This document shows, in pieces, positions 2,401 to 14,972 of a stretch of 64,000 nt of DNA. Origin of the DNA: Candidatus Peribacteria bacterium RIFOXYB1_FULL_54_35 (lineage in GTDB: Bacteria > Patescibacteriota > Gracilibacteria > Peribacterales > Peribacteraceae); NCBI GenBank assembly GCA_001787755.1, contig MFYJ01000007.1:334585-398584 (forward strand), written 5' to 3'. A program made the position numbers and the translations under genes. The notes below the pieces were generated by a model. That model made no database searches and was not told where the DNA came from. It saw only the letters and a program-made list of their open reading frames with translations. Position 1 is the stretch's first letter, and every line of letters begins with the position of its first letter.

Positions 2401-4305
2401 TTACTTTTTCTTCCTCTTTTCCTCTTTCTCATCCACCACTTCCGCGTCCACGATATTGTCCTTCCCCTTCTTCTCAGCTCCCCCCTTCTGCTCCGCTTTC
2501 TGTGCTTCCTCATAGATGATCTTTCCGATCTCCTGCGCTTCGGTTGCAAGTTCTTCCGTAGCCTTCTTGAGCTCTTCGGCGGATGTGTCTTCCTTCTTCA
2601 ACAGGTCTTTGACTATATTCATTTTCTCATTCACTTTCTTCTTCACGCTATCCGTGATCTTTGCATCGTGTTCCCGCATTTGCTTTTCCAGGTTGAAGAT
2701 GAGCGCATCGGCATTGTTCCGTACATCCACTTTTTCCTTCTTCTTCCTGTCTTCCTCAGCATGCATCTCTGCATCCTTCTTCATCTTCTCAATTTCCTCA
2801 TCAGAGAGACCTGTAGAACCCTGAATGGTGATGTGCTGCTCCTTCCCCGTTCCCTTATCTTTCGCTTTCACATTGAGGATGCCGTTCGTGTCGATGTCGA
2901 AGGAAACTTCGATCTGCGGGATCCCCCGCGGAGCAGTGGCTATGCCGTCCAGGATAAATCGTCCGAGAGACTTATTATCTGAAGCCATCTCGCGTTCCCC
3001 CTGCACAATATGCACTTCCACAGATGGCTGATTGTCCGCTGCCGTTGAGAAAATCTGGCTCTTGTTCGTCGGGATTTTCGTATTCCGTTCTATGAGTTTC
3101 GTTGCGACGCCGCCGAGTGTCTCAATGCCGAGTGAGAGCGGGGTGACATCGACGAGGACAATATCTCTGTCGATATCTCCACCCATAACTCCAGCCTGGA
3201 TTGCTGCACCGATTGCGACCACCTCATCCGGATTCACTCCTTTGTGAGGTTCTCTGCCGAAAAGTTTTTTCACTTTCGCCTGTACGGCAGGCATCCGTGT
3301 CATCCCTCCGACGAGGACGACTTCATCGATGCCACTCTTTGTGAGCCCGGCATCCTTGAGAGCTAATTCACAGGGTTTTACGGTCTTCTCGATGAGATCG
3401 GCAACCAGAGCCTCGAGCTTCGCTCTGCTCAGCTTGAGATTTAAATGTTTGGGTCCGGTGTTGTCTGCTGTGATGAACGGAAGATTAATGTCCGTTTCGT
3501 TCTGGGAACTGAGCTCTATCTTCGCTTTCTCTGCTGCTTCCTTGAGCCTCTGCAGGGCAATCCTGTCTTTGCTGAGGTCTACTCCCTGGTCTTTTTTAAA
3601 TTCGCTTAAGATCCACTCGATGATGACCTGATCAAAGTCGTCTCCTCCGAGGTGAGTGTCTCCATTGGTCGAGAGGACTTCGAACACTCCTTCTGCAAGT
3701 TCAAGAATGGAGACATCGAATGTTCCCCCACCGAGATCGTACACGGCAATCTTGTGTTCATGGCCTTTATCCAAACCGTACGCGAGCGATGCAGCCGTAG
3801 GCTCATTGATTATGCGCAAGACCTCCAGGCCCGCAATCTCACCGGCATTCTTCGTTGCCTGCCTCTGTGAGTCATCGAAGTACGCAGGAACGGTGATCAC
3901 CGCCTTATCCACCGTGGTTCCAAGGTATGCTTCCGCATCCTTCTTCAGCTTCTGGAGAACCTTTGCGGAAATTTCCTGGGGCAGCATCTCTTTTCCCTGC
4001 ACTACGATCACAGCGCGTCCTTCCTTTCCTTCCTTCACCGTAAATGGCATGTGCTCCGCTTCCTTCCTCACTTCGCTGAAGCGGCGGCCGACGAAACGTT
4101 TCGATGAGTAAATGGTGTTCTCCGGATTTGTGACTGCCTGCCTCTTCGCAGCGATACCTGTGAGTATCTCGTCATTCTTAAATGCAACAACAGAGGGAGT
4201 GGTGCGATTCCCTTCCGCGTTGGGAATGACCACCGGCTCACCGCCCTCTATGACGGCAACGCAGGAGTTCGTTGTTCCAAGATCTATGCCAATAACTTTA
4301 GACAT
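2401..4305 (-). CDS. dnaK: Molecular chaperone DnaK (Hsp70)
   Basis: A 634-residue cytoplasmic ATP-driven chaperone. The ATPase domain starts with [14 protein letters not shown] and contains [26 protein letters not shown], the phosphate-binding [14 protein letters not shown] and [11 protein letters not shown]. The substrate-binding domain begins around residue 385 ([14 protein letters not shown]), followed by a charged helical lid and a C-terminal VDAEVVDEK tail that ends in a basic KRKKK cluster rather than the usual acidic end. No grpE or dnaJ is adjacent, so it appears monocistronic. It is controlled by a CIRCE operator overlapping its promoter, implying HrcA repression and heat induction. 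The leader lacks a Shine-Dalgarno sequence. Confidence 0.98.
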
Positions 4306-13750: not shown

Positions 13751-14758
13751 TTACGAAGTGACAAGCAGGTTTTCAGCTCGCGTTCGCAGTTCCTCGGAAC
13801 TTGTTCCATCCTGAAACCGGATGTGGAGACCGGAGTGCAATTCCTCGGGGCTGCCAAGCAGCCTGTACGCAGAATTCTCTGTGGTGAATGTTGAAGATTC
13901 CCCCTCTCTCCATTTGCGTACCACATCGATGTTCCTCCCATTGGGATACACGAGGATCGCTCCATCTGTCCCTTCCGTGAGCGAATGGGCAACTTCCCCT
14001 CGTTTTGATTGCGTTGCAGTTCCATTCGAAACACTCACGGTGGCACCTCTCTCTCCGCTCACTGCAATCTGTTGCAATTTTCTTCTGACGGCTGCGTCGT
14101 CCTCGAATAGCATGTTTCCGTAGATATCGACGAACTTCAGGCGTAACCCTTCCACACCGTTGCCAAAATACGTGGTGCTGAGAACATCATCTGCTTCCCC
14201 ATCAGCTAAAGGCTTTGTTGGGTACCCGTGATTGCGACGAAGATATCTATGAGCATTCCTGGAGCGGAACTGGTCGAAATCTGAGAACAGGGGATTTCTC
14301 TCATTCGGTATCTCCATGATGCGGTGTACATGCTCACGAATGCCAGCAAGCATGTCTCCCGGGAATGTCGTCACAATACGAAGGCCGCTATCCGTCTCCA
14401 CCTCATAGAACGGCGGCCCATTCCGGTATCGCTTGTCCCTCGGTGCGAAGTTGATGAAGAGACCGTTCCAAACCCCATGGTCTCTCAGAACTTCTGCATA
14501 CGCATCATGCCAATTCTCCATGATGCCTGCGAGGTGGCGCGGAAGCGCTACTTCCCGCCCCCGGCTGTTGATCTTCGTGGGGAACCCCCCACCGAGGAGG
14601 CGGATTTCCTCTTCATCTCCGTGCGTAAGGGCATCTTCCATCACGGAGAGATCGGTTTCGAGGTGCACATCGGCATCCACCACGGCTTCCGTGGGATCCG
14701 GCGTGTTCTTTCCGTACGTCTCTGAGACGAAGTACCTGAGTGTTGGTGTGGTACGCAT
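13751..14758 (-). CDS. Uncharacterised protein behind a Met-rich attenuator; weak SAM-hydrolase-like features
   Basis: A 335-residue soluble protein. The C-terminal third (LKFVDIYGNML, a GATVSVSN strand, then SLTEGTDGAILVYPNGRNIDVV) is faintly like the C-terminal domain of the SAM hydroxide adenosyltransferase/SAM hydrolase family (DUF62), which turns S-adenosylmethionine into adenosine and methionine. The middle part (FINFAPRDKRYRNGPPFYEV and FDQFRSRNAHRYL) is conserved-looking, but the N-terminal DFG/GVGS motifs of that family are not seen, so this is only a hint. The start at 14758 follows a T-rich, Shine-Dalgarno-less leader. Expression appears to be controlled by the Met-rich leader ORF and terminator at 14782-14935. 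It is not adjacent to methionine genes. Confidence 0.6.
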   Translation of the reverse strand: MRTTPTLRYFVSETYGKNTPDPTEAVVDADVHLETDLSVMEDALTHGDEEEIRLLGGGFPTKINSRGREVALPRHLAGIMENWHDAYAEVLRDHGVWNGLFINFAPRDKRYRNGPPFYEVETDSGLRIVTTFPGDMLAGIREHVHRIMEIPNERNPLFSDFDQFRSRNAHRYLRRNHGYPTKPLADGEADDVLSTTYFGNGVEGLRLKFVDIYGNMLFEDDAAVRRKLQQIAVSGERGATVSVSNGTATQSKRGEVAHSLTEGTDGAILVYPNGRNIDVVRKWREGESSTFTTENSAYRLLGSPEELHSGLHIRFQDGTSSEELRTRAENLLVTS

Positions 14759-14781: not shown

Positions 14782-14807
14782 AAAAAACCCCCGCTTCGTG
14801 CGAGGGT
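14782..14807 (-). terminator. Attenuator terminator with competing antiterminator
   Basis: On the minus strand, ACCCTCGC-ACGAA-GCGGGGGT forms an 8-bp stem followed by T6. Its 5' strand (ACCCTCGCA, 14799-14807) is also a perfect 9-base complement to TGCGAGGGT at 14845-14853, inside the upstream leader ORF, so two exclusive structures can form. It lies 24 bases before the start of the gene at 14758. Confidence 0.85.
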
Positions 14808-14830
14808 CTGGGATTCAGCTTGTGAGCAGT

Positions 14831-14935
14831 TTATGCAGCAGACAACCCTCGCATGGAGCGCATCATCATTTGCATCATCATAGTTCGGCTGGACTCACTA
14901 CAAGTGCCTGCGGTGAGGGAGTGCGATCTGTACAT
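14831..14935 (-). CDS. Met-rich 34-residue leader peptide
   Basis: A 34-codon ORF with ATG at 14935 and TAA ending at 14831. Residues 19-28 read MMMQMMMRSM, so seven Met codons are packed into ten positions; the peptide ends GLSAA. The antiterminator strand (14845-14853) begins in the last of these Met codons and the stop codon lies just past it. This is the geometry of ribosome-stalling attenuation: stalling on Met codons would leave the antiterminator free, while finishing translation would mask it and allow the terminator at 14782-14807 to form. A TTGACA promoter lies immediately upstream, with its -10 nine bases before the ATG. It is too short for homology; the case rests on structure. 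Confidence 0.7.
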   Translation of the reverse strand: MYRSHSLTAGTCSESSRTMMMQMMMRSMRGLSAA

Positions 14936-14944
14936 TGTGGCAAC

Positions 14945-14972
14945 ATCCTAACTATCTCACTGGTATTGTCAA
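14945..14972 (-). promoter_or_regulatory. Promoter of the Met-rich leader
   Basis: A consensus TTGACA (14967-14972), a 16-base spacer and TAGGAT (14945-14950) on the minus strand. The leader ORF starts 9 bases after the hexamer, so it is probably translated from a transcript with almost no 5' leader. Confidence 0.65.

Follow-up and report, generated by a model that had tools for sequence, protein, structure and literature searches.

The window, by which we mean the whole 64,000-nucleotide stretch of DNA that was analysed, carries on its minus strand a short leader between recG (17024–14976), which ends just before the leader promoter, and the gene for P0001 (14758–13751), a protein of 335 amino acids that has a divergent fold of the SAM hydrolase/SAM-dependent chlorinase type (DUF62, SAM_HAT). 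An earlier note, made by reading the letters of this region, had claimed a minus-strand TTGACA promoter here, and this claim held: the –35 box TTGACA is located at 14972–14967 and is followed, after a 16-nt spacer, by a –10 box, TAGGAT, at 14950–14945 (10/12 matches for the promoter as a whole). The leader open reading frame (ORF) starts with the ATG at 14935 and extends to 14831 on the minus strand, encoding MYRSHSLTAGTCSESSRTMMMQMMMRSMRGLSAA in 34 codons. Its seven Met codons were claimed to lie at positions 19 to 28, which was confirmed base by base (codons 19, 20, 21, 23, 24, 25, and 28). The Met-codon run ATGATGATGCAAATGATGATG (14881–14861, minus strand), the putative sensor, is of a conserved 3-1-3 type.

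Downstream of the run, the outer helix of the predicted antiterminator has as its 5' arm TGCGAGGGT (14853–14845, minus strand), with the extended arm continuing towards the stop codon at 14833–14831. This segment is perfectly complementary to ACCCTCGCA (14807–14799, minus strand), a strand shared by the antiterminator, as its 3' arm, and the terminator, as its 5' arm. The predicted intrinsic terminator spans 14809–14782 on the minus strand, with a stem at 14809–14785 and a run of six T residues at 14787–14782, and the next ORF, that of P0001, begins at 14758. The nine-base complement, the terminator that shares one of its strands, and the gene just 3' of the T-run had all been claimed by the earlier note, and all held. 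The predicted leaderless start and the composite antiterminator with the stop codon at its inner end, both described below, were absent from it. We also noticed a small hairpin between the start codon and the Met run at 14896–14906 (minus strand; CACTTGTAGTG), which takes the form CACCTGTGGTG in L035 and L037; it is common to distant leaders and shows a compensating change relative to the window.

To determine how widely the arrangement occurs, 144 relatives were searched with the downstream protein and the DNA upstream was then read. The same layout was apparent upstream of P0001 relatives in other genomes, and the pattern ATGATGNNNATGATG-N3-15-CTGYGAGG was found in 12 of the 144, once in each, compared with none for the reversed control. 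A covariance model built from 16 leaders and containing the Met run (R1) matched 37 of the 74 genomes and 21 of the 40 genera of the window's family, as well as 17 more genomes in ten other families of the class, giving a total of 57 leaders from 54 genomes. Given that R1 includes the Met run, we also constructed a Met-blind model (R2) from only the 80 bases downstream of it. R2 recovered the same family leaders and one further Met leader (G025), followed by weak matches. The main search and the class search were performed with R1, and the Met-blind search covered only the family. The occurrence of the leader architecture in relatives is more than chance.

Outside the class, matches were few and weak; one genome (G350) has a clear MMMAMMM leader, and the others have fewer Met codons or none, with some being Ile-rich. 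A scan of 84,980 GTDB species for a Met run together with GCGAGG and CCTCGC yielded, among matches followed by a T-run, only leaders of the Peribacteria type; the 13 matches in other bacteria lacked a T-run and look like chance coding matches. Viral contigs were also scanned and gave a single match, which we judged to be chance. A contig titled Kiritimatiellales (L105, JAIPIN010000020.1) carries a Met leader identical in sequence to that of a genome of the window's family (G067), and this contig has probably been misnamed or misbinned.

A promoter with at least 9 of 12 matches was found in 44 of the 57 leaders, and in most relatives it is of the same type and in the same place as that of the window. 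In 36 of these 44 leaders the start codon, either ATG or GTG, lies 6 to 8 nt after the –10 box, with the corresponding distance in the window being 9 nt. At such distances the transcript is predicted to begin at the start codon or within a few bases of it. On the basis of the promoter positions, transcription in the window is thus likely to start at approximately 14936–14939, which would make the leader mRNA leaderless or almost leaderless.

In each of the 57 leaders the Met frame is open, with 4 to 10 Met codons after the start; the medians are six such codons and an ORF of 25 codons. The most common pattern is MMMxMMM, in which the spacer codon is variable, and the rest of the leader peptide is not conserved. 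GTG serves as the start codon in 23 of the 57. Three other readings of the repeat were considered and rejected. The Asp (GAT) frame was set aside because the start codon at near-fixed distance and the regular stop belong to the Met frame. An antisense reading, which gives HHHLHHH on the plus strand and resembles a his leader, was set aside because the promoter, the T-run, and the gene are all on the minus strand. Sensing of histidine, suggested by six related leaders near hisS, most of them with CAC spacers, was rejected as a general reading because the spacer codon varies; G008 has hisS downstream, yet its spacer codon is one for Ser.

Nearly all of the 57 leaders have a terminator that can be recognised. 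In 38 of the 40 family leaders, the computation yielded both a terminator and an antiterminator that competes with it; in the other two, the terminator was missed by the script, and all of these structures are predictions. The antiterminator is a composite hairpin. Its outer helix is typically TGCGAGGG/CCCTCGCA, and the letters of its inner stem vary by clade (GTAGGTTGG/CCAACTTGC, GGTTC/GAACC, or CAGGTTGCTG/CAGCACCTG). The outer helix has also been exchanged in some genomes, each time along with its partner, as in G058 (CCGCGCGGGAT/ATCCGCGCGG) and also in G035 and G101. The two halves of each leader's own antiterminator pair with a mean energy of –24.3 kcal/mol, compared with –20.1 kcal/mol for halves swapped between genera, and own halves were better in 33 of 38 cases (Wilcoxon p = 5.5e-9, uncorrected for relatedness). 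The outer helix alone shows only slight covariation because it hardly varies. A finding that would have refuted the proposal, namely orthologous leaders that keep the terminator without the Met codons or the antiterminator complement, was looked for and was not met: all 57 leaders retain both the Met run and the complement, even where the letters of the helix have been replaced.

The position of the 5' arm relative to the ORF is also regular. From the first Met codon to the beginning of the arm there is a median of 20 nt, and the end of the arm lies at the stop codon of the leader ORF (the stop position minus that of the arm end has a median of –3 nt). This geometry suits a switch operated by a ribosome, in that the arm would stay free while a ribosome is stalled early in the Met run and would be covered by one that has reached the stop codon. 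The earlier note had further claimed a trp-style region 1, for which it named CCCTCACCGCA. These letters are present, but in the window the sequence that precedes the Met run paired with the antiterminator arm no better than shuffled sequence did, and a region 1 of this type is not supported there. Over all leaders, 1:2 pairing showed a weak excess over shuffles (p = 8e-4), with 6 of the 57 leaders showing it individually.

To gain insight into the regulated protein, we examined an AlphaFold model of P0001 (pLDDT of 87). With Foldseek, all 21 matches at an E-value of 0.001 or lower were SAM hydrolases/DUF62 proteins or chlorinases, with MJ1651 being the best (E = 1.7e-9). The SAM_HAT_C profile was matched, weakly, by 8 of 16 P0001 relatives (best E = 5.8e-5), whereas P0001 itself fell below every Pfam cut-off and has no Pfam match (gathering threshold unmet for PF01887 and PF20257). 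The faint SAM-hydrolase-like COOH-terminal domain claimed for the downstream gene was thus confirmed by profile, in relatives, and by fold. P0001 is longer than the canonical SAM hydrolase family, and only its COOH-terminal part was aligned when its family was compared with DUF62 by hhalign. The His-Arg-Asp triad of DUF62 was not evident by eye in the alignment of the P0001 family; N103, R107, and Q163/R165 lie near the expected places. The designation SAM hydrolase is therefore a statement at the level of fold, with SAM cleavage activity being untested. A canonical SAM_HAT family member is present behind the same leader in G009. A protein scan of the genome contigs with P0001 found no relatives.

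Enzymes of the DUF62 family cleave SAM to adenosine and methionine (PMC10491745), and the physiological role of SAM hydrolases of this type has been described as unresolved (PMC12120602). The window's genome contains metK, and no match to PF02574 or PF01717, families of the MetE and homocysteine methyltransferase types, was found in it; the organism is therefore probably unable to make methionine from homocysteine with these enzymes. P0001 might then plausibly serve to salvage methionine from SAM, a role that is inferred. Among the 74 family genomes, PF02574 is present in six and PF01717 in five, and one genome from each group has the corresponding gene behind a Met leader (G058 and G027, respectively).

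The genes that follow the leader differ between lineages and are repeatedly methionine genes. Relatives of P0001 or canonical SAM_HAT proteins are encoded downstream in 20 genomes and a homocysteine S-methyltransferase in nine, with that of G243 being assigned on the basis of near-identity to the scanned protein of G199. MetA is found behind the leader in two genomes, and a Cys/Met PLP enzyme was also found there; core MetE is present as a second gene; and methionyl-tRNA synthetase (MetRS) occurs in two genomes, in neither as the first gene. Because none of these families is related to any other, their common link to methionine independently supports the view that methionine is what the codon run signifies. 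In approximately 40% of leader-bearing genomes, the first gene is not attributable to methionine. About a dozen genomes (including G069, G059, G030, G073, G008, G018, G055, G067, G014, G039, and G035) have, immediately after the Met leader, a gene for a small protein of one family (64 to 99 amino acids, beginning MVNILP), and in six cases this gene is followed by hisS. The two members scanned had no Pfam match, and this family might consist of eroded or novel methionine-related genes. Oxidoreductase-like proteins are encoded behind Met leaders in three distant genomes: L072 (G028), L056 (G050), and L167 (G099). The G028 operon also encodes a B3/4-domain protein, a cupin, and a GAF protein, which at a guess belongs with the free methionine sulfoxide reductases; in G490 (L185), too, a similar cupin is encoded behind a Met leader.

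We consider it very probable that the leader is a ribosome-mediated transcription attenuator that senses methionine, in the form of methionyl-tRNA, and controls the SAM-hydrolase-like gene. This reading is inferred from comparative sequence, with no data on transcripts, termination, or starvation. The attenuator layout of trp/his type in a methionine version had been claimed by the earlier note and is supported by the conserved leaders and by the methionine genes downstream. In the proposed mechanism, transcription would begin at or next to the leader start codon, and a ribosome would trail RNA polymerase. When Met-tRNA is ample, the ribosome would pass the Met codons to the stop codon and sit on the 5' arm of the antiterminator; with this arm covered, ACCCTCGCA would pair with the GCGGGGG strand, the terminator would form, and the gene would be off. 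When Met-tRNA is short, the ribosome would stall as it meets the first Met codons, some 20 nt short of the arm, leaving TGCGAGGGT to pair with ACCCTCGCA, so that no terminator would form and the gene would be on. The sequences themselves establish the parts of the leader, their conservation, the regular geometry, and the link to Met genes. That the ribosome stalls, that transcription is terminated or antiterminated, that the response runs in this direction, and that the gene product supplies methionine are all inferences.

Other explanations fit less well. The MMMxMMM peptide might itself arrest the ribosome, perhaps together with SAM, methionine, or another ligand, and the regularity of the 3-1-3 pattern, with its single non-Met spacer, indeed exceeds what a plain run of codons would require. 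However, the remaining peptide is not conserved, the number of Met residues ranges from 4 to 10, the geometry suits stalling on the early codons, and leaders of the Ser and Ile types, built in a similar way, occur in these lineages too, so that we regard arrest by the nascent peptide as highly improbable. Even less probable is a sensor of initiation, in which the leaderless start and the string of AUG codons would respond to initiator fMet-tRNA or to free 70S ribosomes rather than to elongator tRNA-Met. The predicted leaderless start is consistent with such a sensor, and methionine starvation would affect both tRNAs, but the GTG starts of 23 of the 57 leaders and the placement of the Met codons, which are elongation codons in the frame of a start lying further upstream, argue against it. 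A Ser-rich leader upstream of a SerA-like gene also suggests that the identity of the elongation codon matters.

Two further alternatives can be virtually ruled out. The ATG repeats might form part of the aptamer of a SAM or Met riboswitch, with the ORF being incidental, given that a structured RNA is found here ahead of SAM/Met genes. Against this possibility and that of a T-box, no Rfam family was matched, with five tRNAs being the only matches in the whole window; the Met frame is open in every leader; the distance between the –10 box and the start codon is nearly constant; and the inner stem of the antiterminator changes its letters freely, with no separate conserved aptamer seen. The leader might also be no more than the recG terminator accompanied by a chance ORF, given that the end of recG, which has the same orientation, lies immediately upstream, in several relatives as well. 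This explanation is refuted by the comparative data: the leader also precedes unrelated genes away from recG (the hisS region, metA, homocysteine methyltransferase, and metE), and leaders in such places have their own promoter, ORF, and antiterminator.

Attenuators based on codon runs are textbook examples of gene regulation for several amino acids. A methionine attenuator of the kind we propose would share with the trp, his, thr, leu, ilv, and phe leaders of Proteobacteria, and with the ilv, trp, and cys types of Actinobacteria, a leader peptide rich in codons for the amino acid of the pathway; common to the trp/his type are also the mutually exclusive antiterminator and intrinsic terminator and the presence of genes for that amino acid downstream. 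It differs from the trp/his type in its amino acid, methionine, and its Patescibacteria host, in its predicted leaderless start, which would leave no room for a Shine-Dalgarno site, in its stop codon, which lies where the antiterminator arm has its inner end, and in that region 1 is not consistently present. SAM riboswitches (the S-box and other SAM classes) and Met T-boxes likewise control methionine and SAM genes by transcription attenuation in other phyla, but there the RNA binds its ligand or tRNA directly, whereas the sensor in the Peribacteria leader would be a translated codon run. The connection of P0001 with the DUF62 or SAM-dependent chlorinase/fluorinase family rests on the predicted fold and on the weak COOH-terminal domain matches of its relatives.

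According to a survey from 2010, leader-peptide systems had until then been known in Proteobacteria and Actinobacteria alone, to which the survey itself added a his system in Firmicutes (PMC2965389). In the open-access literature that we searched, with subscription journals and preprints being outside the scope, we found neither a codon-run attenuator for methionine nor any codon-run attenuator in Candidate Phyla Radiation bacteria. The class of regulator, that of trp and his, is therefore known; the methionine version and its host appear to be new, in the sense that they were not found in this literature, which is not proof. The leader suggests how uncultured bacteria with small genomes may sense amino acid supply, marks their methionine genes, and ties DUF62-type SAM hydrolases to methionine supply. 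The leaders also constitute a natural set of leader peptides with predicted leaderless starts that can be tested in Escherichia coli.

Among the weak R2 matches were two leaders rich in Ser and Cys (G014 and G045). Their ORFs, MNGSYILSCAPVSSSCCSGSEGGTAL and MNGAYILSCAPVSSSCWSPARVER, are located in L155 (G014:C5, around 410–550) and L153 (G045:C32, around 2480–2620, minus strand), respectively; in each, roughly 7 nt separate a –10-like box from the start codon, and a terminator follows. The G014 leader lies 35 bases before a gene for a SerA-like 2-hydroxyacid dehydrogenase and is likely a serine attenuator. Leader ORFs with runs of Ile (and Thr) codons, such as MSYASLSAVISLAKRIIIARAGSCA, were observed in L150 (G050:C5, around 440–590), L189 (G603), and L190 (G633), with the same type of terminator; the G050 leader was likewise one of the weak R2 matches. 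Taken jointly, these leaders allow a bolder reading, in which Patescibacteria would possess a general system of leaderless, codon-specific attenuators, the Met branch being a class-wide regulon whose DUF62 hydrolases would recover methionine from SAM under shortage and the Ser-rich and Ile-rich leaders being further branches. We consider that this reading could as readily prove wrong as right; if true, it would provide a physiological role for an enzyme family whose role is debated.

In several genomes, two Met leaders are arranged in tandem before one operon, namely in L069 (G027), L071 (G051), L048 (G040, 1670–1771), and L056 (G050, 1333–1433), with the second copies in G040 and G050 being weak matches, and G028 (L072) has two leaders that precede two different operons. 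The MetRS gene behind the Met leader in L164 (G197:C4) can be read with the standard code only as separate fragments, and this lineage possibly uses a different genetic code in which UGA is reassigned.
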